DNA of 64,000 bases from Isoetes taiwanensis (taxonomy: Eukaryota; Streptophyta; Lycopodiopsida; Isoetales; Isoetaceae): assembly GCA_021234155.1 (NCBI GenBank), contig JAJEKV010000238.1:186001-250000 (forward strand), written 5' to 3'. Shown piece by piece: positions 26,764 to 56,373 of this stretch. The notes beneath the pieces were generated by a model. The model ran no database searches, was not told the origin of the DNA, and was given only the letters and a program-made list of their open reading frames with translations. The position numbers were made by a program, and so were the translations under genes. How positions within the stretch are numbered: position 1 is the stretch's first letter; each line of letters begins with the position of its first letter.

Positions 26764-28365
26764 CAAACTGATGCCAAATCAGTTTCTTCCTCTGTGATTG
26801 TCTTCTCCACAATATCAGCACGTTTGTCCAAATTGGAAACATAATCATCTATATTCTTCAACACTGCTTCACATTCTTCATCTATTACTTGCACAGCATT
26901 ATCTTCAATTCTGTTAGAAATGTCAACTATAGAGTTTGAAATTTTCAAACTTGAGCCTGCATCATTTAAATTATCAAACTAAATAAGTACTTATAGAAAA
27001 AAAATCCAAAGTAGTTATACTTCACAAGAATAACTTACTTTCAGTCTTTTACAACTATTACTTTGTTCAGCATTGTCTCTCTTCAAGTTTGGGTTTGTGG
27101 AAGATAATAAAGTGCAATCTTCAATAGATTGCATAATTATATTAGGCTCCTCCAAGTCAGCAGGTGTGCTTAATGATGGATCTTGACTCTTTTCAATGGA
27201 CTGCACTGCACTATAATTGGGAGCAGATTCCATTGCAGATCTACATGGAAGTCCAATGGACCTGAACCAATTATGAGGCATCTAGCTCTCACAAGAGGGA
27301 CAAGTTGATCTCTTTGAGAAACATATGTAAGCGCAAATTGGATGAAAACTGTGCATGCAATGTGCAACAATGGCTGAGACACAAAGTGGGTCATAGGCAT
27401 ATGTACAGAAAGAACAACTTTGTAATCTTGCAAATGCTACGGTAGAGCATTTTGGATGTTCTAAAAATTAAAGGTTGAGTTGCAGTCCAGACATCTTATT
27501 TAGAGATGAAGCTATTTCTTTCAACTTCTCCAGCCTTGGTTGGAGTGTATGTTCTTCATCTTCTGCCTGTTTAAAAATAAAAAGAATGATGAAGCAGAAA
27601 GAAAAAGTATTGAGCACTATGTAATTGCAAAGGTCATTAGCAATTACCCCTTTGTGAATTTCCTCCATACTCTTGTATGCTGTTGTCGCCTCCAAAAGTT
27701 TATTTTCCTTGGAAAACAGCATTGACGACAAGAATGTAATGACACTGGAGTGCTCACACCTGGCCTTTGCTGCTTCAATTTGCTGTTTTGTAGCATCCAC
27801 CTCGTAACTGCACTTCTTCCACAACTTCCTTTTTTTCCTTCATTTCACTGGCTGCACTTTTAACTCTAACATTCAAGTCATCCTTCTGCTTATCTAACTC
27901 AGCGATCAAGAAGTTGATGACAGAATAGTCCACTACACAACCAACAACGTTTGTATGAGGAAATAAGGACTCATACTCATCTTCTTTCTCAAGCTTAGCT
28001 GTAACACTTTTCTTTATTTTAACCACAAATGACTGCCAGTTAATCTTTTGTCCTCTCACATGCAAAGTGAATGCCCGTGCAAAAAACTTCCCAATCTCTC
28101 CAACACAAACATCAGTTCTTTGGTAACATCTTCTGTAGATGTTCATAAACTGATCCACAAATAGTGGATTCATTCGACTAGACTTATAAATTTGCTTGGT
28201 ACCCACCAGTTTTACACATCCAAATATTTTGCTTATCTCATCTTCAGCCACATCTGGCTTTCTTACATCTGAAGAGGTCATGCCCTCACAAGGCAACACA
28301 GATGTGTCAAACATCCTCCTTGCTTCCTCTTCGTCTATGGTCACTTTAGGTTGAGTCTTCTATCT
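26764..28365 (-). pseudogene. Coiled-coil/RING protein of Sola 1 (partly decayed)
   Basis: Minus-strand gene with segments 27648-28365 (helical N-terminal region, coiled coil, a frameshift near 27820), 27039-27566 and 26764-26956, separated by GT..AG introns. The middle segment carries a RING-like zinc-binding pattern: CSFC, 14 residues, CMHSFHPIC, then CPSC. A Ser-rich tail with a basic CKRLK follows, and the last segment is a helical stretch. Two in-frame stops flank the RING (CTT TAA TTT and AGC TAG ATG); each is one C-to-T change from Gln. The 5' exon was not identified. RING proteins of this type are usually ubiquitin ligases; any role in transposition is inference. A counterpart lies at 54660-56373 in Sola 2. 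Confidence 0.65.
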
Positions 28366-29159
28366 CTACACCAGCTTTGAAATTATATATCAGTGGAAGT
28401 TCTTCATTGTGTCTGCAAAAAACTAAACCAATCCAAATCATAGCACTAAGTATCCTGAATAGTACTAACTTTAAGAGCTTAGCAATGAACTGCTACTTTT
28501 TCTAAATAATTACTAATTGTCATCAACACCAATTACCTTGAGCCTACTGTCTGCAAAATAGCAAATGCTTAGCATGTCATGCTAAATAGTAGCTAACTTT
28601 TTCTAACTTAGCACTGAACTTCATCTTCTTAGCAACCGCCGCTAATAACAATTTGAGCCTGCAAGTGTAGCATAAAATTTGCGTTGTTAATGTAACCTGC
28701 TACTTAGCAAATGTTGCCTGCAAACATAGAACGAAATCACTAAGTAACTCGTACATAGCACATACTAACTAGCAAGTACTGCCTGCGAAACATAGTACCA
28801 ATATAACATGTTAGCATAAATTGCTAACTGATTGTCTGCAAACATAGTACTAAATGCTTAACTCGTTAGCATCAACTACTGAACTTGTACGACCAAACAT
28901 TACTGCGGTGTATTTTTCGCTGATGCCAAGCACAAAAAATTCTAGCTTGAAATATCACACTAATAAAGAGATGAATCAAAGCAAGATGGAATGCAATCCT
29001 CCACACCTGCTATATTAACTTTTGTCCTCAATATAGAAGCATGAAATATAATAGAATGAAACCATTTCCACATTATTTACCATTCCCAAAGATTTGTCAA
29101 CAAAGATTAGATGCTTACCACTAAAAGAACTTTTCTTGAGTCTGAGAAATTGTTCAGAT
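28366..29159. other. 5' side of the RING gene, rich in GCTAA/TTAGC motifs
   Basis: Non-coding, with many short TTAGCA / GTACTAA motifs. The same style of sequence (TTAGTGCTAA) fills the first intron of transposase 1 (19430-19740). An unidentified first exon of the RING gene may lie here. Confidence 0.35.
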
Positions 29160-29480
29160 GAGCAATTTAATCCGAGCTCTTTACCAAGCGGGGTAATGGG
29201 ATCTCGATTGACTGGCAATCGATTGTTTAGAATGGTACAAATAACCGAATTCGATAATTACTGCTGTGGAAGCAGCACAGTCACAGCAATTTAATCCGGC
29301 CAGTTAACCAAGCAGGGAAATGGGATCTCAATTGGGGCTTTTGTTGAATCTAATGACTGGCAATTGATTTTTAGAATGGTACAAATAACGGATTTCGATA
29401 ATTACTGTTGTAGGAGCAGTACAGTCACAGCAATTTGATCCGGCCAGTTAACCAAGCAGAGTACGGGGATCTCGATGGGG
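29160..29480 (+). repeat. Subterminal repeats of Sola 1
   Basis: The block AGCAATTT-ATCCG...CCAAGC.G, with GGGATCTCGAT and GAATGGTACAAATAAC, occurs almost three times (starting 29161, 29285 and 29429). It lies 200-500 bases inside the right end of Sola 1, where transposase-binding repeats are often found. Confidence 0.8.
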
Positions 29481-29681
29481 AGTAGCTATCTTTCTGAATC
29501 TGATCCAAGAAACTCCAAGAAAGAAGGAAAGGAAGAAAGGTTCGACGGTTTAGGATCCCATGGGTGGGATTTAGTGCTAAAATAAAATTTAAAAATTCAA
29601 TTACACCCCGTTAATTAGCGCTATTAGTTAGGGCTAAAAATGGCGTCATTTATGCCACCCATAGCGTGCGAGGACCCCAAT

Positions 29682-30289
29682 TGCAGAATCAGGGCCAGAG
29701 CCCGGAGCTTTTCTCAAACGATCCAGTTCTTAAAACATGCGATGTATCAACAGTTGTAGCCAATCAATGGTCTGATCATATTGAATAACAGCTATGGCGG
29801 TGTTGAAAAAAGTATTTGTTGATGTGGGTATTTTGGCAAAATGGCCAAAGAACTTTCTCCGCAAAAACTTGACAAAAGACTCATGGTTCTTGGCAAAGGT
29901 AGTGAGCTTGGTGGAAGTAGCAGAGTAGGAGAGATCCACATACATCAAAGTCTTGTAAATCCGACCATCCCAAAGAATTTGGTGTGCTGACAGCGAAAGA
30001 CCTTGGAGACCAGTGCCAGATTGAGGAAAATTTGAGTTCCATCCACTGACGTTTGAAAACTCGTGGGAGTACTGACAAGATTGGCAACAAATTGCCGGAG
30101 TTGCCCAGGCTTGGGGATTGGAAATTCCTGATCAGCAAAATAATCTAGGCCTACCCTGACCACAACAACGTGATTTTGGCCTGGTAAAGGCACTGGAAGA
30201 GAGGTGCTGGAAAAACTTACCGTGGCCTCCATTGGTGTGATTACATGCAGAGTGTTGAATCGCGAAGAGGCAGCCATGGGCATCGACGG
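29682..30289 (-). pseudogene. Element C env-position ORF, N-terminal part
   Basis: Minus-strand relic matching residues 1-170 or so of the element A ORF. PKPGQLRQFVANLVS matches PNPTQLQQFVAHIVN, SVDGTQIFL matches MVDGTTILL, and NHESFVKFLRRKFFG matches PHDTFVKFLWRKLLG. Frames change several times. Element A is inserted at 30289, just before or within the start of this ORF; Sola 1 cuts it at 29682. Confidence 0.8.
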
Positions 30290-30876
30290 TGTTTGGGGTC
30301 TGGGTTCGGGAACTCCTGCAAAACAGCCCTCTGTGAGGACCCTTGGATCTAACAGGAGAATCTGGGAGCTATGTCACGCGGGATTTGCAAGAAAAACAAG
30401 GAAAAGGGAAAAGAAAACAAAAGAGAACAATGAGATCACAATAATGAGCTTCCTTGATGTCAATGAAGATACATGAGCTCTCGCAATCGAGAGAAAACTG
30501 AAGTGAAACAAGACTCAAAACTCATCTAAAACTCATGTGCTAGCTCTACTCATATATATAGTACAATGGCCTTTGGCCCAATATAGACACTCTGACTGAT
30601 TTCGGTGCCGACTCCTGGAAGAAGGCCTGATTTGCAGGAATGCTGGCGGTGCCTCTTGAAGTGCCTGAAACCACGCTGACGCTGACGCGGGCGGTGACGG
30701 GCCGTCACTTGTCTGAGCGCCTCCTCTTGACGCCAGGCATGGTCTTTGTCTGCGTGGTCTGCTTGGTCTTCTGCTGGGCCTTTGACGACTGACCTGTGCC
30801 TGACTGTAGATCCTTGGCCTTGACTTGGTCCGTCGTATGCATGAATAGTCCTGTACCAGGAGGCACAGGACTAACA
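30290..30876 (-). repeat. 3' LTR of element A
   Basis: 587 bp, from TGTTTGGGG to GGACTAACA, nearly identical to 47980-48565. A TATATATA motif lies at about 30542 (both LTRs), a plausible promoter TATA. The LTR also encodes the last 57 residues of the upstream ORF on the minus strand. Confidence 0.92.
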
Positions 30877-33632
30877 CTCCCCCCCACCAAACGACACTCA
30901 GAGTGAAGAAAAGGAGGAAGTGTTTCCGAGGGCGGGAAACCAGCAGTTTGAAAGTGATCCTCACGGGAATGAGGACGGGCGCCATTATGGTAATTGCCAA
31001 TGAGGTCCTGGCGTGTTTGAAGAGCATCAGGAGTGTTGAGCCCAAGGGCAGGATCTGCATCAATGAGGAATTTAGAGCGCACCATGCCTTCCAGGGCAGC
31101 ATGTGCTTCCGAAGGAACGAACTGGCACTCCATGAGAAGACAGGTCTGTAGACCGAAGGCACTGACGCTGGCATTCGGGTTGCAATAAAAGATGGGACGC
31201 TGCCGATTTAAGGAGCTTACCAGGATGCACTTGAGAGCAGCACAGAAGCCAGCTTGACAGATCCAATTTGCAGTGTGGTCCAGGGTGGCACCATCCTCCC
31301 AATCGGAGCGTCTGACAAAACGAGGATCCCACCGGAGATCCGTCGAGATCTGAGGGGGAGTCCACCCTGCGTGGCCATCCAGGACCTTGGTCCAAAAGGG
31401 AAGACGCCAGTCGGAGGTCAAAAATCTGGGGCATGGAGGGACACCCAGTGAAGCATATGGAGAGGGAGCCATGCCCATGGGCGTGGGCTGCTGAGCCTGT
31501 TCCCTGAATTCATGGACGAGGTCTGGATCAAGAGCTTTGCACCACTGGTTCCAAGCAGAAGCAGAGAGCTGAGTATAGACAGGAGGACTATCCCAACCTA
31601 TTGGTATTGTCTTGCTATCCAAAAGGGCACGCAGTTGATTGTAGCCGGCTAAGTGCTGCATATAAACTTGGGCAAACGGAAGATCCTCAAGATGCCCAAG
31701 ATTCTTCCGCACCTGTTCCAGTGTTTCAGCTTGCCATAGAGGTAAATGATGAGCAAGCTCTGGTATATACTCCTGATGAAGAGTGTGAGTCCGATCATGA
31801 TCTTTGAGATACGGGTTGTTATCCAATAACAACCAGTGAGCCTGTGAGTCGCCCTGAAAGTTTTGATGTGGCCCATCACGGAATTTGTCTTGTGTATCAG
31901 CCAGATAGAAGTCATGGAAGATGTACGCCATCGGCTGAACAACTCTAAAGGTGATCAAATCCGGGTCTTCACAGTGAATGAGGTCGAAGATTAAAAGGGC
32001 ACAGAGTAAACCTTTGTCTTCAACTGAGAGGTCTGGCCAAATCCGGAGAAAATCCTCACTGCGCATGTGGGCATCAACCTGACCATCTGCTGTGTACCAC
32101 TTCAAAAGAAAGAGGTGGCGGCGGGCAACCACATAATCTAGGTAACTGGAAGGAATAGCGAAATCCACAGACATGTGGAGAGATATATTAATGTAGCCCT
32201 CTTGTTTAGTTTGGGCCTCTTCGACAGATTGGACAGCTTGCTGGAGCTGATGTTCAAGATCGCGGATCTGGTTTTCCTTTTCTAACAGAAGACGTGACTG
32301 ATCACGGACCCGTTTCTGAGGAAGCGTGGCATGTGAAGAGGATTGCCCAGGAGTATGGAGTCGCGGCGTGGCAATCTCTGCATCATCAAGTATCTTTTGC
32401 TTCTTGGCCTCCGTGAGTTGATCCTGGAGAGGCGTGAGCTGACTGGTCAGCGTGGAAAGCTGAGCTTCTAAAGAGGCTATTTGAGCGTCACGCTCTGTAA
32501 AGGCATGGGCTTGAGTGGTGTAATTCCGAGAAAGCTTTGTATACAGCGTGTCAAGCTTAGCAATGTCTTTATCCTTGTCAACCAAGAGAGTTTCCCTTGC
32601 CTTGACCTGCTCCAACAATTCCTGAATGGTGGTTTGCAATTGAGCCTGCTGGTCAGCAAGCAGACTGTTCTGATCGTTGGCATTCTTTAGATCCTCACGG
32701 GCCTGTAAAAGAGCCTCGTGCTTTTCTTGAAGCTTGTCCTCCAGAGTGTGAACTTGCGTGGTAGCAGCTTGAAGGTCTCTGTGAACCGCGTCCGAGGTCT
32801 CCAGGGATGCTTGAACCCCATTCATGAGAATTTCCTGGGATTCTTGCAACTTGAGAGCAGCAGCTTGAACATCCTGCTGGTATTGATACAGAAGCTGGCG
32901 AGGATGTGGAGGTGCAGGGGCCTGCTGTTGCCGTGTTTGTGACGTTTGAGAGACATGATGAGAATCGGAGGGCATGGATTCTGTGGAGGAAGAAGAGACT
33001 GTGACATGTGTGGCATTGCATTGAACATGACCAGGAGAAGAAGGGCGTGAAGGTGCAGCCTGTTGGGTGTGAGGAAGGGAATGAAGGGACCGCTGAGTGG
33101 AGGCATGAGAAACAGAAGGTGACCCCGAGAGAGGAAGATAATGACGGATTATGGCTTGAAGATGAGCGCCCACCGAGGAATCAAAGCCAGAGGAAGGGGC
33201 AGCTCGAATACGATCTACTTCTTGAGGAAGTCGGAAGAACAGCAATCGGGGCCAATCCAGATGGTGAGTGGAGCTTGTGGCCGTGATGACAATATTGTAG
33301 AATGGTTTGTTGATATGGGTGTTTTTGATTGAATACCCAAGCAATTTGCGCCAGAGAAACTTGACAAAAGTATCATGGGGCTTGGCAATGTTTGTGAGAC
33401 GATGCATGTTAGCTTGATAAGGAACAGCGCCAAACTGAGTGACATCTATGTCCTGTAAGGTAGCCCAAGATAAAGAAGGTTTTTGCAAAGGAATATGGAA
33501 TACCTCAGAGATCAGGGGCTGAGTAAGCAAAATGGTGGTGCCATCGACCATGGTAGCATAGCCTTCCGGGCTGTTGACGATATGAGCAACAAACTGCTGC
33601 AATTGCGTTGGATTTGGTGCAGGAAGGTCCAT
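30705..33632 (-). CDS. Env-position coiled-coil ORF of element A, 975 aa, open
   Basis: Reads from ATG (33630-33632, MDLPAPNPTQ) to a stop inside the 3' LTR. Order: a conserved globular N-terminus (1-190); a Ser/Thr/Pro/Gln-rich linker; a long Gln/Leu-rich coiled coil (about 240-480); a globular region (about 480-880) containing NRQRPIFYCNPNASVSAFGL; and a C-terminus encoded by the LTR that ends in basic KRRRSDK. No membrane segment or signal peptide is seen, so it is not a classic envelope protein. The same ORF exists in element C, so it belongs to the family. It is the only long frame of element A without stops. Function unknown; a nuclear or particle-associated structural protein is possible. 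Confidence 0.75.
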   Translation of the reverse strand: MDLPAPNPTQLQQFVAHIVNSPEGYATMVDGTTILLTQPLISEVFHIPLQKPSLSWATLQDIDVTQFGAVPYQANMHRLTNIAKPHDTFVKFLWRKLLGYSIKNTHINKPFYNIVITATSSTHHLDWPRLLFFRLPQEVDRIRAAPSSGFDSSVGAHLQAIIRHYLPLSGSPSVSHASTQRSLHSLPHTQQAAPSRPSSPGHVQCNATHVTVSSSSTESMPSDSHHVSQTSQTRQQQAPAPPHPRQLLYQYQQDVQAAALKLQESQEILMNGVQASLETSDAVHRDLQAATTQVHTLEDKLQEKHEALLQAREDLKNANDQNSLLADQQAQLQTTIQELLEQVKARETLLVDKDKDIAKLDTLYTKLSRNYTTQAHAFTERDAQIASLEAQLSTLTSQLTPLQDQLTEAKKQKILDDAEIATPRLHTPGQSSSHATLPQKRVRDQSRLLLEKENQIRDLEHQLQQAVQSVEEAQTKQEGYINISLHMSVDFAIPSSYLDYVVARRHLFLLKWYTADGQVDAHMRSEDFLRIWPDLSVEDKGLLCALLIFDLIHCEDPDLITFRVVQPMAYIFHDFYLADTQDKFRDGPHQNFQGDSQAHWLLLDNNPYLKDHDRTHTLHQEYIPELAHHLPLWQAETLEQVRKNLGHLEDLPFAQVYMQHLAGYNQLRALLDSKTIPIGWDSPPVYTQLSASAWNQWCKALDPDLVHEFREQAQQPTPMGMAPSPYASLGVPPCPRFLTSDWRLPFWTKVLDGHAGWTPPQISTDLRWDPRFVRRSDWEDGATLDHTANWICQAGFCAALKCILVSSLNRQRPIFYCNPNASVSAFGLQTCLLMECQFVPSEAHAALEGMVRSKFLIDADPALGLNTPDALQTRQDLIGNYHNGARPHSREDHFQTAGFPPSETLPPFLHSECRLVGGSVSPVPPGTGLFMHTTDQVKAKDLQSGTGQSSKAQQKTKQTTQTKTMPGVKRRRSDK
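30877..30890 (-). promoter_or_regulatory. Polypurine tract of element A
   Basis: GGTGGGGGGGAG on the minus strand, directly before the 3' LTR. This is the standard plus-strand primer of LTR retroelements. Confidence 0.8.
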
Positions 33633-34290
33633 TTGTGAGAATTCAGAGCTCCCCGGCGCCCGCGACTTCACGATTTCGGGCCGACGAGGGCGCCGCGAAG
33701 GTGGGTGTCGAGAAGGTCACAGACTCAAAAAGAGCTGGATCCCTTGGAGCGTAAGCCCGAGGTGAGGAAATTTAAGTCGTACGCCATGGCAAAGAGCGGC
33801 AGAAAGGAACAGGAAGAACTGTCTTGAGAAGGCGGAGAGCGGAGAGCGGAAGACGAAGACGAAGATGGACGAAAAGGTGTTTAGGGCGCACAAGGGTTGA
33901 GCGAAGGGGCATGATGAGAATGAAACGGTGGCCGTTGATGATACCAGGTGGCGGTAGATGCGAAGGAGGCGATTGAGAGGCGAAAATTTGGCTATGTCCC
34001 CAAACAGTTAAGGGAGAAGGGATGAACGGTGGAGATGAAACGTGAATGAACGATCGGAGGTGACAGCTGGCGAAGGTACACATATTAATGTGCGACGGGC
34101 GTGAAAAGAAGGAATGTCATTTAATGCTGGCAACTCGAAGTGGGATATCATTAAAACGAAGGTGTCAGAAGGTACCATGGCTAGATATGCGGCGGGAGAA
34201 AAGATTCCTCATTTAGAAACAGCCTTGCATTGCAACCACGTCGGCGAGTTTTCTGATTGGACCACGTCGACAAGAGTCCCGTCGGTTGGA

Positions 34291-34299
34291 CTATAAAAG
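34291..34299 (+). promoter_or_regulatory. TATA box of the antisense mini-gene
   Basis: CTATAAAAG, a canonical plant TATA box, lies about 42 bases before the mini-gene ATG. Element C has CTATAAG (48998-49004) about 46 bases before its own copy. Confidence 0.65.
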
Positions 34300-34333
34300 A
34301 CGAGCAGTGGGCAGAGCGAAGACACCCTTTGCG

Positions 34334-34597
34334 ATGATGAGTATGGCAGCGGCCGGATTGAACGAAGATTGCACTATACCAACAAACTGCCAGGAGTGGA
34401 TTACGTGCAAAATGAACTGCTTGGACCTGTGGAAATGCCACAACCGTGGCATTGCAATGGACGGGTGGTGCAAGAGGATGGCTGAACATCCCGACCCCAT
34501 GACCAACGCCATGGAGGTGGTGGTCCATCTGCGCTGGGATCCGGAGCAGAACTACTACCACATCCTGCGCATCACCTCTGCTCCCAACCCGGAGTAG
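34334..34597 (+). CDS. Antisense mini-gene of element A, 87 aa
   Basis: Lies on the strand opposite gag-pol, between the integrase end and the env-position ORF. From MMSMAAAGLNEDC to RITSAPNPE, then TAG. Visible features: several Cys (DCTIPTNC, CKMNCLDLWKC), Trp-rich turns, and a C-terminal strand-like part (MEVVVHLRWDPEQNYYHILR). The element C copy (49046-49212 plus 56862-56931) preserves CxEWIT, GIxMDGW and HLxxxxxxxYHIL, with a similar TATA box. Conservation of box and frame argues for a real gene. Antisense ORFs after pol are known in some plant Tat-type elements such as Grande; whether this is related is unknown. It may make a small regulatory protein or an antisense RNA. Confidence 0.65.
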   Translation: MMSMAAAGLNEDCTIPTNCQEWITCKMNCLDLWKCHNRGIAMDGWCKRMAEHPDPMTNAMEVVVHLRWDPEQNYYHILRITSAPNPE

Positions 34598-34719
34598 AGG
34601 GGTTTTTAACTTAGGATTTTGTAAATAGGGCACTGCCTATAGAGCTCTGCTCATAGCGGAAGTAAGTGGGCAATGCTCACATTTTGTAATTTGCCTCTAG
34701 TAATATAAATATGCCTCGT

Positions 34720-36002
34720 TTAGTCACTATCTGTGGTGTCAGAACTTTGTGGTGCATCTTGTGTAGAACTTTCTGTAGCTGTTGTATGAAATTGCTTAAG
34801 GCGAAAGCCATTAACCAGAGTAGGTAACGGAGTGCCATCTAATTCTGCCAGCTTGAAAACGCTGGGTTGTACCACTTGAACAATTTGATAAGGACCAAGC
34901 CATCTGAACTTTAACTTGCCCGAAAAATTTTTGTAACGAGAATCATAAAGAAGAACCTGCTTTGAATGTTTTTGTCTTAAGACGTTTGTCATGCAATGAT
35001 TTCTGCAACTGTTGTCCATGAAGAACATGAATGTAAGCATCTCGCCGAAGTTCATCCAACTGTTCCAATTGATAAACCCTTTCCTTGAGTGCAGCAGGTG
35101 GATTATGTGCTGTAGCAAATTGAAAACGGAGAGTCGGAAGAATATATTCAAAAGGCATGAGAGCTTCTTGTCCATAAACTAGTTTGAAAGGAGTGTGGCC
35201 AGTAGCGATTTTGAAACTGGTGTTGTAAGCCCAAAGAACAGTAGGCAACTTATCTTGCCAATCTGTGCGAGAAGCGTCACAAATTTTCTTGAGAATAGTG
35301 ATGAGAGTTTTGTTGGTGCTTTCAGCCAAGCCATTTCCTTGAGGATAGTAAGGTGTACTCTTCCGGTGTTGGATGTGAAGATAGTCCGTCGGCTCCTTGA
35401 TGGTATGATTGACAAAATGCACGCCACGATCACTAACAAGTTCCGTGGGACAACCAAAACGCGTGATGATGTGCGTGTAAAGAACCTTGGCTGTGCTGGC
35501 AGCAGTGTTGTCTGGAAGTGCACAAGCTTCCGCCCATTTGGTAGCATAATCCGTGATGACCAGAATATAGCGGGCATGGGTGTGCCACGCCGGTGGGTCC
35601 ATGGGCCCCACAAAATCCATTCCTCATTTGCTGAAGGGATATGGCGTGGCGACCGGCGTCAAGGGAAGAGCGTCACGGGCCGTGGGCTTTCCCACACGCT
35701 GACAGACGTCACACGTGCGAGCATAAGCGTGGGCATCTTTGAAGAGCGTGGGCCAGAAGTATCCTGCCAGAAGTATTTTGCGTGCCGTGGCGTCACCACT
35801 AAAATGACCACCACCAAGCCCGTCGTGGGCTTGTCGAACAAACCTCATGAGGGAGGACACAACGTCGGAGGACCATGTCTTTACCGCGTTTGTATAGATG
35901 GCCTGCAACCATGGTGTAGTCACGGACTTCTCTGAGAAACTGACGGCGGCGTGAGCAAAGCTTGTCTGAAGAGAACAAGGCACCCAAAGATTTAACTATC
36001 AT
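34720..36002 (-). pseudogene. Element A integrase with GPY/F C-terminus
   Basis: Minus strand: the HHCC zinc-binding N-terminus (HDGLGGGHF, then CDVCQ) is followed by the catalytic core with Asp in VITDYATKW, Asp in VSDRGVHF and Glu in GLAESTNK (the D,D-35-E set). The C-terminal GPY/F module reads LKFRWLGPYQIVQV. It would insert the cDNA copy into the genome. Defects: a frameshift near 35860, TGA in place of Trp at 35621-35623 (FSK, stop, GMDF), and a frameshift near 34950. The N-terminal edge is separated from RNase H by the 36003-43455 insertion; element C runs through the same point uninterrupted. Confidence 0.9.
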
Positions 36003-38452: not shown

Positions 38453-38982
38453 TTCAAAGAGAATAAGGTACTGCTGAGAGAAGAGGAAGCACCGATGAGA
38501 CGTGGATGCAGAAACGCGCCTGAAATAGCGAACTCCCAACCAAAACGGGCATGCGCCGCCCGCATGCATGCACGACATGCATGCTCGTCCCATTCTAGAA
38601 TGGCGATCCGATGTCCGGATCGATCGCGATTCTAGAATGGGACTCGCAGTAAAACCAACAAACCACCGACTACCGAGAACTTCCTTACAAACTAGGATCG
38701 AGGACGAAGGTCACAGGACGAGGCCAAAGGCCGGAAAAGGATAGCAAGAAAGAAACGCCAAATTGGCTAAACCAGACAGGAAGAAGCCCCTCCCCTGCCT
38801 GGAAATAATTCAAAGAGAATAAGGTACTGCTGAGAGAAGAGGAAGCGCCGATGAGACGTGGATGCAGAAACGCGCCTGAAATAGCGAACTCCCAACCAAA
38901 ACGGGCATGCGCCGCCCGCATGCATGCACGACATGCATGCTCGTCCCATTCTAGAATGGCGATCCGATGTCTCGGATCGATG
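38453..38982 (+). repeat. Near-identical 170-bp GC-rich direct repeats
   Basis: 38453-38624 and 38809-38982 match almost perfectly, from TTCAAAGAGAATAAGGTACT to GCGATCCGATGT. Each ends in GCATGCATGCACGACATGC, ATTCTAGAATGG and a GGATCGAT palindromic stretch. A related ATTCTAGAATGGGACTCGCAG occurs at 37938 and 38630. Sequence at 37850-37935 also resembles 38984-39070, suggesting a nested insertion with its target. Confidence 0.8.
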
Positions 38983-45505: not shown

Positions 45506-47938
45506 TCAGAGAAAAGGTCTTCCAACCAGCATCTCATAATCACTAGGATCCTCTCCTGCTTTCCAAACTCCAAATTCCAAAGGGAATTTGAGATCACCAA
45601 TGCTGATATGGAGAAGAGGAGTGACGCCTTGAGGACGCGTGATATGGCCATTTGCCAACTTGATGTCATAAGGGGCACGGTATAATTGTTTGATGCCCAA
45701 CTACTTTCGGAGCTTATCAGTAATAAGATTGACAGCACTACCACCATCAATTTGAACATGATTGATGTGCTGATTGCCCACCGTGGCATGCACCGTGGGT
45801 GTTGAGGTCGCAACAGCGCCAACCAGAACCGTGGGGAGAGGTAACTGATCTTTGAGATCCGGACAGAGTTTCAAAATGGTGGCCCGGCTCAAGGGAATCT
45901 TGATCTTTACAAGTTCTTCCTGAAGTTCCAAAGGAACATGGGAAAAAGGGTCCGCAGGGTCCAGTGGAGCTGGAGTTTGTGGTAAGGAAGCGGAGGCTTC
46001 TTTGAGAAGCTCGACCTCAGCAGCAATATTTGGATATGGCTGAGAGCGTGCGCTGGTGGATGATGACGGCGCTGCCTGACGCTGCTGAGCCCGAGTGGTG
46101 GCGTGAACATTTGCCAAGGTTCTACCTTCCGCAGCCTGCATGAGTTTCAGAATACTTTGTCTCACTTTAGGCATGACGTGAGGCATGAGTTTGTCAAGAT
46201 CAGGCGCGAAGTGAACTTTTTTGTCATCTTCATGAGGGACTATTTCCACAGCAAAAGCAGGTTGCGTGTCATGAGGAATGATGGTCAAATGGCGTGAAGC
46301 CCGTGTGTGACGTGTGACTAGACCAACCCAATTGGACTGCTGGACGGGAGGGTTGAGAGCTTGATAAATCTCTTCTTGAGCTTGTTGATCCATAGGATTG
46401 GAGGTAGATGCAAATTGCTGAGGGCGCTGTTGTTGAGGCGGCCGTGGGGGCTTCCGCAAAACAGGACGGGGGCCTTGTTTACCGTTGGCCACCCACAGTT
46501 GATAAGCTGTGAGACGCACTGAAGCGGGTTGATTTGAACCTGGAAGTTGAACTTGAACTTGAGGAAGTTGAGGACACGCTGTGGTGGTGTGACCCCATTC
46601 ATGACAATGATAACATTGAGCTTTAGAAGGATCAAAGGGAGGACGGTTGCCTTGTCCCCGTGGCTGCTGAGATTGCTGCGTTTGTTGATACTGCTGCGGT
46701 TGTTGAGTTTGATATTGCTGAGGCGGATAGGACTGTTGTGGTTGAGGCGTGGTCTGGACTTGAAAAACCATCTTTTGCCTAAAAGGGGTAGGATGAGAAC
46801 GAGTGCATTCCTCCGTGGCGTGATTGCACATATTGCACCTTTTACAGTGAGGAGGTCCATTGGATGAGTTGCATTCATTCGCCAAATGGCCTTGATATTT
46901 GCAAAGATGACACCAAATCTGTGAGCATTGAGGATTTGTTTGCTGAGGCTGGACTGCATTCTGAGGAACCATGACGGGGGGCATGAAAGGAAGTTCCGTG
47001 AGAGCAACACCTCGAGAAGAAACATTGACCGAGTGATTGACTAATTCAATGGCCTGTTCCAGAGACTTGGGACGCAGGTATTCGGTCATTAGGCGAATGG
47101 CAGGAGGAAGGCCTTGCAGAAACCAGACGAGGATCTGGCATTGCGTGGGGTACTCCTGGAGTTTACTGACGAGAATGTGAAGACGATCCGCAAAGTCCCG
47201 AGCTGACTTCGTGGGCTCTTGCTGAAGGTCATTGAGTTGCTTGAGGAGTATCTGATCGTCGTCCGTGGTGCCATAATGAGACAGGAATGCGGTTTTCATT
47301 TCATGCCAACTTTGCTTCCAGTGGCTTTTGTTGGCCATTAACCACTGATGAGGGGCGCCTCTGAGCGTGGTCGAAAAGATATGAAATTTGAGTTGTGGTT
47401 GCGCATGACCATTCAGAATGGCCAAGGCTTCAAATTCCTCCATATGGGCTTGAGCACTCTGATCCAGAGGTTTGCCTTTAGTGTTGCCAAAAGTTGGATA
47501 AGTCAGCTTCAAATTATGAGTGGGAGAGGAAGGCGGAACGGATGCATAAACAGGTGGATTCGGTGGAGGATATGCAGAAGCATAGAGAGGTGGAACCGCC
47601 TGGGACTGAGAGCAAGGGGGTGGGACTGAAAAACCCGGTGGTCCATAGAAAGTAGCATCTGGTGGGGAAGGGCCTTGGGAGCCGTCCTCATTGGGCTGAA
47701 CAGGGGTATGTTATGGAGATTGCGGTTGTGAACAATGGCGACACACAGGGGGAGACCCTGGTCGAGAATGAGCACGAGGGGTAGGAGGTGCCGACTGAGC
47801 TCTGGAGCGGACACGGTCTCCCTCAATGTCATAAGCAGTATCATACATATCCCGAACAGCCTCGCGTCGTTGATGACGCTCCAGTCGAGCCGCCGTTTGG
47901 CAAAGAAGTTCTTCAGGAGTGAAACCTCGAGCAGACAT
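45506..47938 (-). pseudogene. Element A gag and aspartic protease
   Basis: Minus strand, from ATG at 47936-47938 (MSARGFTPEEL). Order: N-terminal Arg/Pro-rich region; capsid-like retrotransposon gag domain (AILNGHAQPQLKFHIFSTTL, APHQWL, FLSHYG, FADRL); Cys/His zinc knuckles (CHLCKYQGHLANEC, CKRCNMCNHATEEC, then CYHCHEWGHTTTAC); Gln-rich spacers; and protease around VQIDGGSAVNLI, with MLVGRPFL downstream. Gag packages the element RNA; the protease would cleave the polyprotein. The protease box is DGG where DSG/DTG is usual. Three in-frame stops: TAA at 47711-47713, TAG at 45701-45703 and TGA at 45506-45508. No frameshift was noticed here. Confidence 0.88.
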
Positions 47939-47962
47939 GATGGAAAGAAAAGAAAGACCAGA

Positions 47963-47978
47963 CGCGGTAGCGGCGACA
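47963..47978 (-). promoter_or_regulatory. Putative primer binding site of element A
   Basis: TGTCGCCGCTACCGCG on the minus strand begins one base inside the 5' LTR. It resembles the TGGCGCCGTT-type site of Athila/Tat elements with T for the third G. It could be a mutated site; the tRNA identity is not certain. Confidence 0.35.
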
Positions 47979-47979
47979 G

Positions 47980-48565
47980 TGTTTGGGGTCTGGGTTCGGG
48001 AACTCCTGCAAGACAGCCCTCTGTGAGGAACCTTGGATCTAACAGGAGAACCCGGGAGCTATGTCACGCGGGATTTGCAAGAAAAACAAGGAAAAGGGAA
48101 AAGAAAACAAAAGAGAACAATGAGATCACAATAATGAGCTTCCTTGATGTCAATGAAGATACATGAGCTCTCGCAATCGAGAGAAAACTGAAGTGAGACA
48201 AGACTCAAAACTCATCTAAAACTCATGTGCTAGCTCTACTCATATATATAGTACAATGGCCTTTGGCCCAATATAGACACTCTGACTGATTTCGGTGCCG
48301 ACTCCTGGAAGAAGGCCTGATTTGCAGGAATGCTGGCGGTGCCTCTTGAAGTGCCTGAAACCATGCTGACGCTGACGCGGGCGGTGACGGGCCGTCACTT
48401 GTCTGAGTGCCTCCTCTTGACGTCAGGCGTGGTCTTTGTCTGCGTGGATGCTTGGTCTTCTGCTGGGCCTTTAACGACTGACCTGTGCCTGACTGTAGAT
48501 CCTTGGCCTTGACTTGGTCCGTCGTATGCATGAATAGTCCTGTACCAGGAGGCACAGGACTAACA
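47980..48565 (-). repeat. 5' LTR of element A
   Basis: 586 bp, TGTTTGGGG..GGACTAACA, about 98% identical by eye to 30290-30876, with TATATATA at about 48243. GACGA follows at 48566 as half of the target duplication. Confidence 0.92.
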
Positions 48566-49045
48566 GACGAAAATCTTGAGGCAGTAAAGGAGATGAGGAG
48601 TCGAAGAACACGTGAAGAATAGGGGTATAGCAGTTCAGGTGTCATTTATATGAAGGGGCCATAGGGAGATCGGAGCCATTGAAAAAGACAGGTGGCGAAC
48701 ATCGCTGAAACAGGAAAGCGATCAAAAATTTGGTGAAGTCCCCAGTAAGGCACAAGAGAAGGAACATGTGATGGGACATCATCGTGAGGGACAGTTGCAT
48801 AATTAAGAATAGCAACTCACGGTAGAGTGTAGTTGTATTCGTCCCGTCCGTGCAATAATGGAAGGGTGCGATATTTACGGTCTGGTACAGTAAATTCCAA
48901 GAGGATCTTTTTGATGAAAAATCCATGATGGGTAAGGATGGGACATGTGGAATGACAACTAGGATGCCAGCTTGACAGAGTAACAAGCCGGTGGCCTCTA
49001 TAAGAACGGATCAAGACGAAAGAGAAGAATTAGCAGAAGAACACC
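48566..49045. other. Element C sequence between env-position ORF and antisense mini-gene
   Basis: Non-coding remnant of element C. Near its end is CTATAAG (48998-49004), the likely TATA box of the element C antisense mini-gene. Confidence 0.5.
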
Positions 49046-49212
49046 ATGGGCTTCGTGAACACTATGCTCAGCGATTGCCTTGAATGGATCACTTGGCGCA
49101 TGAATCATCTGGGTATATAGAAGCTAAAAAACTATGGAATTCCTATGGATGGCTGGCTGACGGGCCTGGCAGAGATGCCCGACCTCCATTCTGAATATGT
49201 GGATGTGGTGAT
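49046..49212 (+). pseudogene. Element C antisense mini-gene, 5' part
   Basis: ATG at 49046 opens a frame reading CLEWITWRMNHLGI, stop, then KNYGIPMDGW, AEMPDLHSEYVDVVI. It matches CQEWITCKMNCLDL, HNRGIAMDGW and AEHPDPMTNAMEVVV of the element A mini-gene. One TAG (49118-49120) interrupts it. Sola 2 is inserted directly after the VVI codons; the frame resumes at 56862. Confidence 0.75.
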
Positions 49213-49239
49213 GGGTGAAAGTATGCTGGTGGGTAGCAA

Positions 49240-49263
49240 AAGCATGCGTCCGGACGCATGCTT
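49240..49263. repeat. Perfect 24-bp palindrome in Sola 2 left end
   Basis: Half-site AAGCATGCGTCC followed by its exact complement. It starts right at the inner edge of the left inverted repeat and has no counterpart at the right end. More small GC hairpins follow (GGGTTTTAGCCC; GGGCGTAACTGCCC). Confidence 0.9.
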
Positions 49264-49739
49264 ATAGCAGGGTTTTAGCCCGCTATCAGCACCCCTGCTT
49301 TTGCTTAATCTGGGTGCTGATGGGCGTAACTGCCCGTCATTTCTTTTTACGCCCTTCATGTACTCGCACAACACCTCACGAACGAGCCGTTAGGAAAATG
49401 ATTGTGGGCTTTTGGCTGGATTTTGTAGCGAGTGGTGGTGTGGTAGCACGTTGCAAATTGGATTACCGTCATGGCCCATGAAATTTCTCCCTCCAATTCA
49501 CTTATCCTCCCTCTCGGGAATTTCATGGCTCCCCGATACCGGCCTCGAGGCAATCACACATTTAGCATTGGATTTTTGGCCCGATGAATCCCAATACTGA
49601 TGTTCCGTGATCTGTTGGATGTCAATGCAACTGAGGAAATATCACGTGAAGATCCGGTTTCCTCGCAATTTACAAGAAATTGGATGCAGCGAGAAAGAGA
49701 GAATACTGATTACGGAATAAGATGAAAAAGCAAATGGCT

Positions 49740-52700
49740 GAGCGGGAGGATCGAGCATGAGACTTGGGCAAGAAATAGCCAAGCAAGTAGTTGATTACTT
49801 CAATAAGCTCACCAAAAACATTCACCGAACTCAAGGCCGATGTGATGAAGAGGGTGGTTCATCACCACGAAATGGAAATCTCGAGAACACGGAATTTTGC
49901 CAAATCCAAAGGAGTGCAAGGCGTGGGTGCTGCTCAACAACTTGAAACAGACAATGGCAGCCACAAAGAGGCAAAGGAACCATGATGTTTGGAGAGCCGT
50001 AACCTCATTACACGGGTGATGGCTTCTTCCACAAAATTGAGATGCAATTCCACTATGGCGGGGTTGTTAGGTGCAACTAATTCTTGCTTTCATGCCTGCG
50101 GCTTCTTAGGTGCTTTTTAAGTGCTTTTAAGTGCTTGTATCTGCTGAGTGATGCTTTGGATGAGATATGTTCATTGATTAATGTGTGCAATATTTCTTAT
50201 GATAGGTTGCATGAGGTCAACAATTGCAACCTATTTGATTAAGAAAAATCGGAAGGCCGCCCTTGGAAATGGTCCGTGGTCTAGCTTCCAAAGGAGGTTG
50301 AGGTGCGATTCTCTCACCCCTGCTTGCAAGCAAAGCATAACAGAATTCTGGAAACAAAATAGCAGAGTCTCTCCTTGCAAGAAAGATGTTGTGAACACTG
50401 TTGGAGAGTCAAGCCCGAATTTCTTATCCCTTGCACCTTATGGAGGTCACACGGTATAAGTTTCCATACAAATTTTTCTTTGCTATTGTTGCATAAATAT
50501 TTCTAACCAAGCGGCCACCATTCAATTTGGAGCTATTTCAACAATACAAAAAGGCACATCCCCGAACACCCTGTTTGCTTAAAGGCTTTCGAGAAGTTGA
50601 AGCCTATTTATGTAAAGAAAGTATCAGAAAGGGAAACCTGTTGTTGCATATACCATATGAAGTTGGAGTATGCCAGGGTAGCCCTGAATGCATTAAGGTC
50701 AGCGAAAACTGGATTTCATGGTGAAGAGTGCAAGTGCACCTGCGAGGTCTGTGGACTGGTGAGGCGATGTCCGCCAGCCAATATATGTATGACTCAACCC
50801 GGTGAAAGCTCACGGAGGGTCGTGGGTTTGCAACAAGAGCGAGGGTGAAGAATGGCATAAACATGACTGCTTGATGCAGACATGTCAGAAGTGTGGCATA
50901 AAAACTCTTCCTATATGTCCAAGAGAGAGAGAGAATCATGAGTTCTTGCTTGAATGGAAGACGTTTGAAAAGGTAATACTCTCTTTATTGCATGCTGCAA
51001 CATGCTGATATGTGCTGTCATCCGCTGAAAACTGCTTTTGTGCTTTCAACTTGCGCTAATCTTCTGTTTTATGCTACAGACCTTGTTACAGATTCCAGTG
51101 GAGACAGAAGAGGCTGGTGGAGTTGCAGACTGCGTTACCAAGGAGGTGCCAGGTGGCAGCAGAAAGAAAAGAGCCAATGCCACCAAGAAGGGAAACAAAA
51201 GTAAGAAATCCAAGGTAGCTGGTGGGACACAGCCTGAAGCTGCAGCACAAGTTGAGAAGAAGGGAAACAAAAGTAAGAAATCCAAGCAAGCTGGTGGGAC
51301 ACAGACTGAAGCTGCAGCACAAGACGAGACCTCAAATGGCAAGGGGAAAAAAAAGAAAGGACCAAAGCCAGTCCTCAGATTGTCTTACAAGAGAACGGCA
51401 GTGAAGGATTTCATTTCATATCTGTGTTCCACATTGAAGATATTCGTGCCACACAATTACAGGGCTAGATGGCAGGCCATGCAATTCAGGAGTTGCCTGG
51501 ACAATATTCAAGATGGCATCATTGTTTCTGTAATTGATTTTTGCAGAGAATTACAAAGATAAAAATACAAAGGGAGGTTCAAAGCCAAAGATTGGCACAA
51601 TGACCAGATAACAATTCTCGGCCCACATCATTATAGGATGGACATCAGTTCTGGGATCAGAAAGCTATTGAAGGAAATCCATTTTTACTTGAGTGATGAC
51701 AAGCTTCATGACACTCTTTTTGTGTAGCACTGTCTTAGAAAGCACAATTCATGGCTTGTATCAAATGGTGTAGATTTCTCCAGGCATATAGTTTGGTCAG
51801 ATGGTTGTTCTAGCCAATTCAAATCTTCTATTTCCTACCAAGATATCACCATGAGCTAGGGAAGGAAATAGTATGGAATTTCATTGGGACAGCCCATGGT
51901 AAGGGAGAGCACGATAGGCAAGGGGCAGTCCTTAAAGGGGCATTCACTAGAGAGCAGCTCAAATATGATGGGGTGAGATTTAGGGGTGCTGCTAATGCAT
52001 GTGAATTCGCAAATCGCTGGAATGAAGGTACCAACAACGGGGACATCAAAAGGTATTATGCTTTCATCCGCCAGATTCGTTGAGTAGTGCCGCCTCAGAA
52101 ACTGCCAGAATAATGTCTTTGAATAGTGCTTTCATCCGCTTTAAGTCTTTGTCTCGTGAACTGGCCAGATCTTGGATGAGTAGTCCAGATATGATGTCTG
52201 TGAGATGCAATACTTGTTGTTTCCTTGCAGGTACTTCTGGGTAATTGGAAAGGATGATGTTGATAGGACAGACCCGCTGGACTGTGCCAGGGTGGAAGGG
52301 ACCAAGCAAATACACAGCATCCGAACATACTTGGCCAAATCAAGCACAAGGGTGGCTCGGAGAGGTTTAAGTTGTTTCGTGGTAACCGTTTGAAAGGAAA
52401 CCGGTCATCTTGTGTGAACAAGCAATGATTGAAGAATTGGAAATATGTTACACTAAAGCCGATAAGCTCCATGGTGAAGGTAATCAAGACTAAATCGATG
52501 AGGCATTTTTGAAGGTGATGGAGAATGGCTATCAGGAAACGTAGAGGAAGGTGATAACTTTGTTGTTGAAATGAAAGGTGGAAATCAGGAGAATGCAGAT
52601 TTCTATGTGGTCAAATGTGTTAAGTCGAGGCATATCCTTGACGTAATTGTCAAGGATAGCCGGGTCGAACCTTCAATGTGGATGAACATGTGTTGGCTGG

Positions 52701-52858
52701 TTTGTACTATCTTTGCCTTGACCCGGATGGTAGTTGGGAGCTACTTGAAGACAAAGGCCGACTTTCAATCTGATCATCACGTATCGGCTATCAAGTTTGA
52801 GATGAATCGATTCACGGCACCAACAGATTTTCCCTTGAACGGGCTACTCACCGGATGA
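49740..52858 (+). pseudogene. Sola-like DDD transposase 2 (heavily decayed)
   Basis: Relative of the transposase at 18737-22414, spread over several exons with GT..AG-like introns (for example about 50973-51078) and many stops and frameshifts. Matches in order: ITEFWKQNSRVSPCKKDVV; ETCCCIYHMKLEYAR; CTCEVCG and CQKCG zinc ligands; RARWQAMQFRSCL; Asp in SVIDFC (51536-51538); HFYLSDDKLHDTLFV, stop, HC; Asp in WSDGCSSQFK (51800-51802); Asp in HGKGEHDRQG (51913-51915); and a C-terminal part (DNFVVEMKGGNQENADFYVV). All three catalytic Asp codons survive. A Lys-rich insert with a 72-bp tandem duplication (51185-51328) is not present in copy 1. Confidence 0.8.
51185..51328 (+). repeat. 72-bp in-frame tandem duplication in transposase 2
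   Basis: Two 24-codon units reading KKGNKSKKSK.AGGTQ.EAAAQ. The insert is strongly basic and lies between the zinc-binding region and the catalytic core. Confidence 0.9.
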
Positions 52859-53259
52859 TCCTTTGACACCGCCATATGAAGGTTGAATATGCTTTGGCCT
52901 AGTTGTTTTATCATTGTAACAAATCTGTAGTTACTTGTGTACTTGTCTCAAATTTTGATCATTGTATTGGAGACAATGCCCCTGAGACAATGTTTGTAGT
53001 ATTGGTTTGAATTATTGGAGTATTTTAGTATTGGAAACAATGCTTGTAGTATTGGAGAGTAAGCTTGATATATATTACAGAAAATTGTACACTCAAGATT
53101 AGAACATCACTCAAGATCACTCAATACTGAAGATAAGACAAAGTAATCATACATATATATTACAAAAAAGTACTGTACAATGGTTACTTCATGAGTCATC
53201 GAAGTCTTCAGAGTCATGCTGGTCGCCAGGAAGGGTGCCCAGCAGCTGCCTTTGTACTT
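52859..53259. other. AT-rich spacer between transposase 2 and the FCP1-like relic
   Basis: Non-coding convergent intergenic stretch, presumably 3' untranslated sequence of both genes. I see no defined motif. Confidence 0.4.
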
Positions 53260-54085
53260 CTAATGGAGCATTGAGGATATAGTAACTGTCTCCTCTTCCA
53301 ACCATGCATCAGTGATGTCAACCTGTGAGATCGTTTCCTGTACAGTATGAGAAGACAAGTACTCCAAAGTTGGACACACAAACTTCTGCAAAAAGTTGTC
53401 CTCTTCTTGCCCCTTGAAAGGCATAATGGGAAGGGTTGTGTGTGCAGGGTTTAGAAACCCTTTGTGTAGGCTGTCATCAACCAAGAAAATCATACCATGA
53501 TTTTGAGGAAAATCCTCAAGTACAACCTTCAACTCCTTGAAAAAATCTGCTTTTTCTCGGGTCTTTTGGATGCTCGCATGCATAGCAATGCTCTTGACCA
53601 TAAACCTTCAAGAATCTGGTCCGCAAATCGGGAACAATGCATCCACCATATCCCTTGTATTCCGAAGTAGAGAAGCACTCCAAATAACAATATCAAACCT
53701 CTGCGAAGTGCCCACTCCACAAATTCATGATACCCCTCGTCCGCAAATGAGGTACTTATTTGCGGTTTCTTTTACAACATGCTTGGTTTGTGGTGGAGGC
53801 AAGATTTTCCCCGTTCATTCTCCTCTCATTTGTTATGCGCCAAGACACCATTTACGCCCAGCACCATCAACTTCCGTGCGGGTGTCCATCCTTGGGACGT
53901 TTGCAACCACCGTCGATGTGTGCCGCATCGTGCTTGTGCATCCGCAATGTGTGCTTTGGACTCACTGGGAAGTGCTATCGGGGATGTCTTTGGGCGGTCT
54001 TTGCCGCAACCTCTTTGGACTCGCTTTATCTTTGCTACGGATGATGGAGAGTGCTGATAGCCATAGTCGATACATCCTTATTAGT
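53260..54085 (-). pseudogene. FCP1/NIF-type HAD phosphatase domain relic in Sola 2
   Basis: Minus strand, in order: a basic N-terminal stretch; KLMVLGVNGVLAHNK (about 53840-53885), matching the first HAD motif of plant FCP1-like proteins (LLVLDxNGxL) but with Gly for the nucleophile Asp; GYHEFVEWALRR; FDIVIWSASLLRNTRDMVD (second motif); and FFKELKVVLEDFP, IFLVDDSLHKGFLNPAHT (third motif, LxDDSxxKxxxNPxHT), ending YLSSHTVQETI. Intact relatives remove phosphate from protein serine, for instance on the RNA polymerase II tail. Frameshifts near 53700 and stops break it. It lies between transposase and RING genes; no copy was found in Sola 1. It may be a captured host gene or an element gene. Confidence 0.7.
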
Positions 54086-54659
54086 ATCTCCCGCCCCCAA
54101 TGTATGGGTGTTTCCGGCTATCGGTAACCCTTGATTTGCCTTTGTCCTCGGTTTCTTCATTCACGACTGTCTTGTTCTCCGCATGCAAGGATGAGCTGCA
54201 ATTAACAACTGAAATTTGAAACACATTCGAAATATAACAGGATAACAGGCACCTTTTGTATGTTAGAGTTTGTCTTTGGCACTTCTTTATCTGTATTGTC
54301 TTCTTCATCGATTCACTAAGTATAACCATTGGCTGCCTTCTTTTTCTCGAGACAAGTTTTTACGAAAGCCTAAGTTGAATAATCCAAACCAAAATTTGCA
54401 CATTAAAGGTGGAATAAAACAGGGATCAAATATATTAATTGTTTGAACAAAAACCTTTTTGGTGATGGTTTAGGGTTGTCTTGCAAATTCAAGGTTTGCT
54501 TAAGTTCGAAATACATAAGGCAAAATTACATTAGCCATGTTTTTCTTTCCAAATGCTACTTCTATGGGGACGTCCTCATCAAGGTCATTTTTCGACTCAC
54601 CCTCACTTTCTTCTTCCACAACCTTCCCGGCCCTTGACCGTGTCAACTTTGTTCACTGC

Positions 54660-56373
54660 TTAACGACCGGTCACGAATCGATTGCCGACATCTTCGCCAT
54701 CGTTTTCCTTCCCTGCAGCAACAGTGTTAGAGGAGGCCTTTATAGAGGCAGCTGCAGAATTTGGAACTATACTATAATTGTTGGCACCATCAGTACTACT
54801 TGAATCTCCCTTGGATTCAGCATGCTTTGGTGTCTCAAAGACCTTGGTCGCCAAGTCCGCAGCAGTGTCAAGAGTCTTTGGTAGTTTGTTGTCCAATGTC
54901 TCAAAAGCACCTTTCGATCTTTGTCAATTCAAAATCAGAGCCTAAAAACAGGCATGTACCTTTTTTCCCATGTCTTGGATGTGGAGTGTGAAGCCTTGTG
55001 GACTTGTGCTTGGCTGATCCTGGGGTCCTTTTACTTTTTGGTGTGATTTGTTGTTTCCTTTTCCTGCTGCTACCAGGAGTTGTGGCTACATGCTCATCAA
55101 CATCAATTATCTTCTTCTCGGTTTTGTGAGCTGTTCCAGCATGCAACACTTCCTGCTTTATTGTATTAAGCTTACCTATTTCCTGCACTAAGCCAGTAGG
55201 AATGGTCTCTATGCACTCGAGGCAGCATCCTCTTTCCATGAGCAAACTGGTGCAGCTAACGCGATAATGATGTCCACATTTCATCCGCAGGCTGAGGGTG
55301 TAATCATCCTGGAATGCAAGACCACAGGTGGAGCATCTCTCCTCATCTCCAATTGGCAATCGGAATGGTATTGGAGTGATGCTGACCAGCTGATCATTTC
55401 TCTTGGTCATCTCCCTCAGCCTGGTGACATTCTGTAAGTGCTGCTGGGCTTTTGCAAGGAGGGACTCGTTGTTGGCAATCTCGGCGATTAGTGCGACCAC
55501 CTTTTCTACAATGGTTTGATCTATTGGCCCACCCCCATTTCAAGTAGGGACTTCAAAGATATATTACGCCATATCTTTCTCCCTCTCCAAAGAATGAATC
55601 TCTCAGAGACACTGCATTAGGATCCGCGGTGCTTGAAGGCGTGCAATATTATCCTTTATGGTCTTCAACTTCCCCTCGCGCGGTAGAAGAAGCTTCCCTT
55701 TGCCTCCAGTTATGCGGCCTGTTCCTTCTTTGACACTAGGTCATTCTCAGCGCAATTTTAGGGCTTCCTGCATATCTTGGATCATGCTTTCCGGACGGGA
55801 AATATTTTCCCCATAAGTCGAGAATCTTCTTTGGACACATTGAAGTACTCTGAATGACAACCTCCTTCTAATTTTGGCCAGATGCCGAGGCTGGGCTTTT
55901 TCTCGCAATGCTTTTAGTCTTTGTTATGCATTTGTGATTTCTTTGGGCTCTATTTTGTGTTCCATTGTAATACGCCGGTAAGCCGAGTTCACTCTTGACC
56001 TTGCTCGAATAGGCTACGCTTTTTCGCCCTGCTGCCCAATTGACCTTGAAATTTTCTGGATCCTGCTTGGCCCTCTTGCAGTTGTTGAATGCAAATAAAA
56101 AGAAACCGTCTTCCTTACTTCTCTGTTCTTCAACCCTTCTGGGTATATCTTGCTCAACAGCTCAATTAGAGCTTCTTCGTGCTCTGGCCTTATTTTGTCG
56201 ATGGATGTCTTGTTCGGAATGACACCATTGGTGTCCCAAACCTCATTATATTCTGCTGCAGATATCACATCCGTTCGAAATTGAGAGGGATGCACGCCCT
56301 CGTTTGATAGACCCGCGTAGGCATGGAAGTCCTCCTCAGTTCGGCAATCAGCCAGGTCGGGTCTTAGGGGCAC
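54660..56373 (-). pseudogene. Coiled-coil/RING protein of Sola 2 (decayed)
   Basis: Minus strand: an N-terminal segment (56014-56373, LSNEGVHPSQFRTDVISA...VRKTVSFYLH) resembling in layout the N-terminal segment of the Sola 1 protein; a helical stretch (LLAKAQQHLQNVTRLREMTK); a RING-like zinc-binding pattern CSTC, 14 residues, CGHHYRVSC, CCLEC (about 55215-55340); a Lys/Arg-rich region with SSRKRKQQITPKSKR (nuclear signal-like); and an acidic/Ser-rich tail (54660-54896). Spacing, strand and position after the transposase match 26764-28365. The exons between 55500 and 56014 are too decayed to read. A ubiquitin-ligase-like role is inferred from the domain only. Confidence 0.6.

Follow-up and report, generated by a model that had tools for sequence, protein, structure and literature searches.

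Two Transposons with Convergent Transposase and RING Genes

We analyzed a 64-kb window of the Isoetes taiwanensis genome (the whole stretch of DNA from positions 186,001 to 250,000 of contig JAJEKV010000238.1, numbered below from its first nucleotide) and found in it two DNA transposons with recognizable ends, here element 1 and element 2. Each displays a plus-strand DDE/D-type transposase gene and, convergent with it, a minus-strand gene coding for a predicted RING protein, both lying within the terminal inverted repeats (TIRs). All four genes are broken by frame changes or in-frame stops. The principal features are:

18532-29677, plus strand: element 1, a Sola-like DNA transposon of 11.1 kb, delimited by TIR arms and a CAAT target-site duplication (TSD)
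18737-22414, plus strand: transposase 1 (T1), from tblastn matches (18977-22411), open reading frames (ORFs) and splice landmarks
26763-28412, minus strand: RING gene 1, from three-frame reading, splice landmarks and a weak match to Pfam zf-RING_2
27291-27416, minus strand: RING-H2 of its product RING1, C-x2-C-x15-C-x-H-x2-H-x2-C-x10-C-x2-C, by strict pattern
49213-56857, plus strand: element 2, a Sola-like DNA transposon of 7.6 kb, delimited by TIR arms and a TGAT TSD
50178-52843, plus strand: transposase 2 (T2), heavily broken by several frame changes and stops, extent from tblastn
54660-56522, minus strand: RING gene 2, from three-frame reading and splice landmarks
55213-55335, minus strand: RING of its product RING2, with the C2-C3 spacing of 15 seen in RING1, by three-frame reading and pattern

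The initial annotation had placed a RING gene downstream of and convergent with each transposase, which is borne out in both elements, and the gene falls within the TIRs in 2/2 elements seen. The spans it had given as "Sola 1" (26764-28365) and "Sola 2" (54660-56373) are the RING genes rather than the elements, which are larger.

The TIR arms of element 1 (18532-18550/29659-29677; 19 nt, 84%) were chosen by eye and are unremarkable alone, ranking 17th of 37 inverted pairs. Its ends are nonetheless credible because a perfect CAAT stands on both sides (18528-18531 and 29678-29681), the first letters GGGT are common to the ends of both elements, and a transposase lies inside. The arms of element 2 (49213-49251/56819-56857; 39 nt, 90%) form the longest inverted pair in that repeat search and are flanked by a perfect TGAT (49209-49212 and 56858-56861). 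A perfect 24-bp palindrome (49240-49263) sits at the inner edge of its left TIR, with no such self-match reported at the right end. CpG observed/expected ratios are 0.51 for the window as a whole, 0.33 for element 1 and 0.57 for element 2.

The Transposases and the Sola Assignment

T1 is read from two exons (~18737-19387 and ~20550-22414). Its frame changes once near 20970-21000 and is interrupted by an in-frame TAA (21245-21247), but T1 keeps the three conserved Asp motifs. The intron between the exons carries a retroposon-like insert of ~590 bp (19763-20349) with a poly-A end and AAGCACCACC on both sides (19753-19762, 20350-20359). The best protein-database match of T1 has E = 8.4e-136; 66/66 database relatives match element 1 and 52/66 match element 2, every match being on the plus strand and inside the elements. 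T1 and T2 belong to one transposase family, which has relatives in Klebsormidium and Ceratodon, and share 41% identity over a 151-column core match. In a tree of 48 rows (T1, T2 and 46 of the 66 relatives, P0009 being trimmed of its first 560 residues; 200 bootstrap trees), both depart, in no resolved order, from a fork that also yields five other groups, and they pair in 0/200 bootstrap trees. The transposases are diverged, as first proposed; their exact placement is unsure because both are decayed and have long branches. Scanning with the transposase alignment revealed no relatives encoded in viral contigs (10 pattern-matching stretches) or prokaryotic genome contigs (76 stretches).

No Pfam family exceeded its cut-off for the transposase, and NCBIfam gave nothing. 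The structure model of one relative (P0002) has a predicted integrase/Mos1-like fold by VIA-align; Foldseek with the transposase model gave weak matches, the best being NurA (E = 1.3e-4, TM 0.12 or less). D240, D323 and D364 are invariant in 56/66 relatives, the remaining 10 being unaligned, and the catalytic residues are probably among them.

According to the parts of the published accounts available to us, here and below, the Sola superfamily is characterized by 4-bp TSDs, TIRs and a DDD transposase, with elements mostly of 2-9 kb and some of >15 kb, and is known from the moss Physcomitrella (PMC10741241, PMC3627910); its TIRs are reported to span 11-1124 bp (PMC10741241). Both elements likewise have 4-bp TSDs (CAAT/CAAT, TGAT/TGAT) and TIRs, and a DDD-type transposase with an RNase H-like fold is predicted from the P0002 model together with the invariant aspartates. 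The Sola label accordingly fits the TSDs, TIRs and DDE fold, as an assignment by features rather than against a reference Sola1/2/3 transposase.

The RING Genes

Both RING genes share one order of parts, beginning with an N-terminal domain and continuing through a coil-like stretch and the RING to a C-terminal exon. RING gene 1 comprises exons at 28412-27648 (N domain and coil-like part), 27566-27039 (RING) and 26978-26763, the last preceded by an intron at 27038-26979. A further upstream exon is likely, with none found in our reading of the locus. The gene is damaged by frame changes near 28350 and 27790 and by in-frame stops (TAA 27470-27468, TAG 27284-27282). Its N-domain exon has 194 codons, with a stop-free probability of ~1e-7 by base composition (fixed frame, uncorrected for searching). 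The coil-like stretch, a candidate coiled coil, is a long helix in a low-confidence model, and the N domain, predicted from two rows, appears helical at a pLDDT of 44.5, too poor for a fold search.

RING gene 2 starts with an ATG exon (56522-56458), followed by an intron and an exon from ~56385 that holds the N domain, with a frame change near 56110, and a broken coil-like part. Downstream, we place an intron from 55567, an exon with the RING and basic tail to 54960, another intron and a C-terminal exon to 54660; the splice sites of introns 2 and 3 (47 and 49 nt) were inferred from short, plausible but unproven signals. The RING exon has 212 codons and a stop-free probability of ~6e-6, calculated in the same way and with the same limits.

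RING1 retains 8/8 zinc ligands and RING2 7/8, site 5 being Arg. Against zf-RING_2 (gathering score 27.3), RING1 reaches 17.1 bits (E = 0.0066) and RING2 11.5 bits (E = 0.38); since both miss that score, they are called RINGs by ligand pattern and not by Pfam membership. NCBIfam gave nothing for the RING rows. The strict pattern occurs in the window only at RING1, and the pattern with site 5 free occurs in its six frames only twice, at RING1 and RING2. A chance origin of the motifs was rejected by first-order Markov simulation, in which 0/60 simulated 64-kb windows contained either version. The RING-like site originally reported in both genes stands in full for RING1 and with one ligand replaced in RING2. 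The basic tail reported with it is present in RING2 (18 K/R against 7 D/E over the 84 aa that follow the RING) and is not seen in RING1 (8 K/R against 11 D/E).

In searches of solved structures, the best PDB match of RING1 is RNF4 (E = 0.0024), and E3 ligases or RING-box E3 subunits account for the seven best of 30 matches (E = 0.0024 to 0.0046). The RING part of RING2 gave only E >= 0.33, and the N domains of the two genes nothing convincing (best E = 0.83 and 0.073).

Relationship and Origin of the RING Genes

By their sequences, RING1 and RING2 look homologous, given the weak similarity of their N domains, the equal C2-C3 spacing of 15 and a similar exon plan. In global alignment, the N domains score at z 3.2-3.8; depending on which of six settings was used, between 1 and 8 of 2000 shuffles did equally well (post hoc), and this score is reached by 1/998 other fragments, from either side. 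As these control fragments we used overlapping, non-independent stretches cut from the 66 transposase relatives and from the window's other ORFs with at least 118 codons, after excluding the three ORFs of the RING genes and any F- and P-rich stretch (polypurine tract). The test uses one frame join in RING2, and a longer version adds one in RING1. A MAFFT alignment of the two N-domain exons gives 18% identity. The RING part and a few residues beyond it also align (BLASTP E = 0.005, 10/2000 shuffles as good; hhalign E = 0.0032, probability 10%), at a level that two unrelated RINGs might also show. From the last RING Cys to the next splice site there are 84 codons in RING1 and 84 codons plus one base in RING2, and exon 4 measures 216 and 251 nt, respectively.

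Accordingly, we propose that the two elements would be fossils of one ancient Sola-like cut-and-paste lineage that encoded two proteins, the second being a RING protein, convergent from the other end and inherited with the element rather than captured twice. We regard this account, including the mechanism proposed below, as moderately probable. The view in the initial annotation of an element-encoded partner instead of two captures is partly supported, namely by the place within the TIRs, the orientation, the exon plan, the N-domain similarity and the deeply split transposases. If the RING genes are one gene by descent, their presence in both elements would make that gene older than the T1/T2 split, the alternative being recombination between elements.

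Several observations weigh against this account. Only two elements were seen, both dead, and RING2 has the Arg at ligand 5. In the global N-domain test, the boundaries and the frame join in RING2 were picked after an alignment had been viewed. The local N-domain alignment is not significant (BLASTP E = 1.6; 251/2000 shuffles as good), and hhalign gives E = 0.43 with a probability of 0.1%. When end gaps are free, 3-12 of 1000 shuffles do as well, but the best alignment then falls in another register. The flanks of the RING are dissimilar (1289/2000 shuffles as good before it, 333/2000 after it). The gene plans of RING1 and RING2 differ from the first acceptor to an EG motif (125 vs 84 nt), from the acceptor to the first RING Cys (150 vs 185 nt), in introns (81 vs 47 and 60 vs 49 nt) and, as read, in the phase of intron 3; another gene-plan distance is 640 vs 734 nt. 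Finally, no relative of RING1 was found at E <= 10 among 5.8 billion proteins (full length, 7996 candidates scored; N domain, 26 candidates; RING2 was not searched there), although transposase relatives are present in that set. The searches require shared 5-residue words, and this absence is weak evidence because the gene has introns, so that ORF-based records would hold single exons.

Both elements display further genes between the transposase and the RING gene or in the corresponding slot:

53263-54077, minus strand: broken NLI-interacting-factor-like (FCP1/SCP-type) phosphatase gene (Pfam PF03031, NIF), the third gene of element 2, lying between T2 and RING gene 2
23139-23624, minus strand: ORF of 186 open codons in the corresponding slot of element 1, coding for 162 aa from its ATG

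The uninterrupted phosphatase ORF (53263-53607) matches PF03031 at E = 1.1e-6 (28.8 bits) and a hand-joined reading at E = 3.5e-7 (30.5 bits), both above the cut-off of 21.8; its read-through found nothing meaningful among solved structures (three Frizzled rows, E = 0.03). The element 1 ORF has an acidic C-terminal half and no family match. Since the RING gene occurs in both elements but the contents of the slot differ, the data from these n = 2 elements are suggestive of the RING gene as the core partner and the slot genes as cargo. Element 1 also has a 2.3-kb stretch (23940-26240) of nearly all purines on the plus strand, open over 767 codons on the minus strand, with a GC skew of 0.80 and an AT skew of 0.82 at 24001-26000.

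The same slot contents could indicate a region that takes up genes, and hence that unrelated host RING genes were captured twice, independently, in the same place, in which case the RING proteins would be passengers, alike only as any two RINGs are. In support of such captures, plants possess many RING genes, the sequence on either side of the RING cannot be aligned, and the local N-domain tests fail. Moreover, amoeba Sola2 elements carry Fanzor1 genes (PMC3627910). The identical orientation and place, the similar exon plan and the global N-domain signal argue against such captures, which we consider unlikely. A single capture in one element, followed by transfer between Sola lineages through element recombination, would explain why elements whose transposases are deeply split have one RING gene in common, and Fanzor-bearing Sola2 elements share one half while differing in the other (PMC3627910). 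However, RING1 and RING2 (23% over 57 columns) have diverged no less than the transposases (41% over 151 columns), as is expected under joint descent, and we judge this transfer distinctly improbable.

Descent from one ancestral two-gene element, which we infer for the present pair, might be extended further: green-plant Sola-like transposons could ancestrally encode, next to the transposase, a dedicated RING-type ubiquitin ligase that predates the split of the lineages to which the Klebsormidium and moss elements belong and removes a host silencing factor or dismantles the transposase complex. This extension is tentative, and we hold it to be doubtful. For Klebsormidium nitens and Ceratodon purpureus, the protein database contains members of this transposase family; if the proposal is true, complete relatives there should carry a RING gene between the transposase and the far TIR.

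Surroundings of the Elements

Element 1 is adjoined by a 988-codon ORF without a Pfam match (30705-33671, minus strand), with similar-looking pieces, by eye only, near 16273-16866 and 48226-48645. An uninterrupted 842-codon ORF (1441-3969, plus strand) codes for a G-type lectin receptor kinase with B_lectin, S-locus glycoprotein and kinase domains. The window also holds reverse transcriptase and gag of retrotransposons. By these genes, and by the green plants named as sources of transposase relatives, it reads as probable plant DNA.

Predicted Function and Comparison with Known Systems

Under descent from a two-gene lineage, the RING protein would act in the nucleus, dimerizing through its helices, with its N-terminal domain binding the transposase, element DNA or a host chromatin protein. 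The RING would recruit a host E2, leading to ubiquitylation either of a silencing factor of the host or, once strand transfer has taken place, of the transposase. This ubiquitin-ligase function is predicted from the RING motif alone, and ubiquitin transfer is plausible for the ancestor of RING1. Whatever the origin of the gene, its product could instead serve the transposition complex as a structural subunit or bind DNA as an anti-silencing protein, with a RING that only binds zinc and moves no ubiquitin. In favor of this, RING1 lacks a Trp before C7, a residue common at this position in RING-H2 domains. A non-ligase role would agree with the two-gene layout of MuDR mudrA/mudrB (PMC3440606) and with an anti-silencing second protein like VANC (PMC6446971), but is opposed by the complete ligand set and RING-H2 spacing of RING1 and by the E3 ligases and E3 subunits that form its best structural matches. 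We give it a substantial chance, somewhat short of even. If the ligase reading is true, mobile DNA would gain ubiquitin transfer as a further tool for managing its host or its own transposase, supplied by a ubiquitin-ligase-like partner that the transposon itself encodes.

The RING partner distinguishes these elements from Sola as far as the available accounts describe it, the accessory gene reported being Fanzor1 (PMC10741241, PMC3627910). The literature surveyed, mostly at the level of titles and abstracts, names no RING or ubiquitin gene in any Sola element, which does not establish that none has been published. A trans-acting nuclear partner is favored by analogy with the second genes of MuDR and VANDAL, the RING of Chapaev/RAG1 and the deubiquitinases of Helitrons. 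MuDR resembles the present elements in coupling a transposase gene with a convergent second gene (PMC3440606); its mudrB is apparently needed for integration, and VANC of VANDAL/Hiun is an anti-silencing second protein (PMC6446971). Unlike our elements, the plant transposons MuDR and VANDAL/Hiun belong to another transposase superfamily and generate 8-11-bp duplications, and the available parts of their accounts mention no RING in the partners. Helitrons with VTD/OTU deubiquitinases are likewise transposons carrying ubiquitin-pathway proteins, but these are rolling-circle elements whose proteins remove ubiquitin rather than transfer it (PMC9741609). A RING linked to a DDE transposase is also found in Chapaev/Transib and the RAG1-RAG2 transposon, and TransibSU has a second gene for a Kelch-PHD partner; in Chapaev/RAG1, however, the RING lies in the transposase protein itself (PMC4411706). 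If our reading is true, the RING protein of the Isoetes elements would be a parallel to the RING of RAG1/Chapaev, reached by a separate route.

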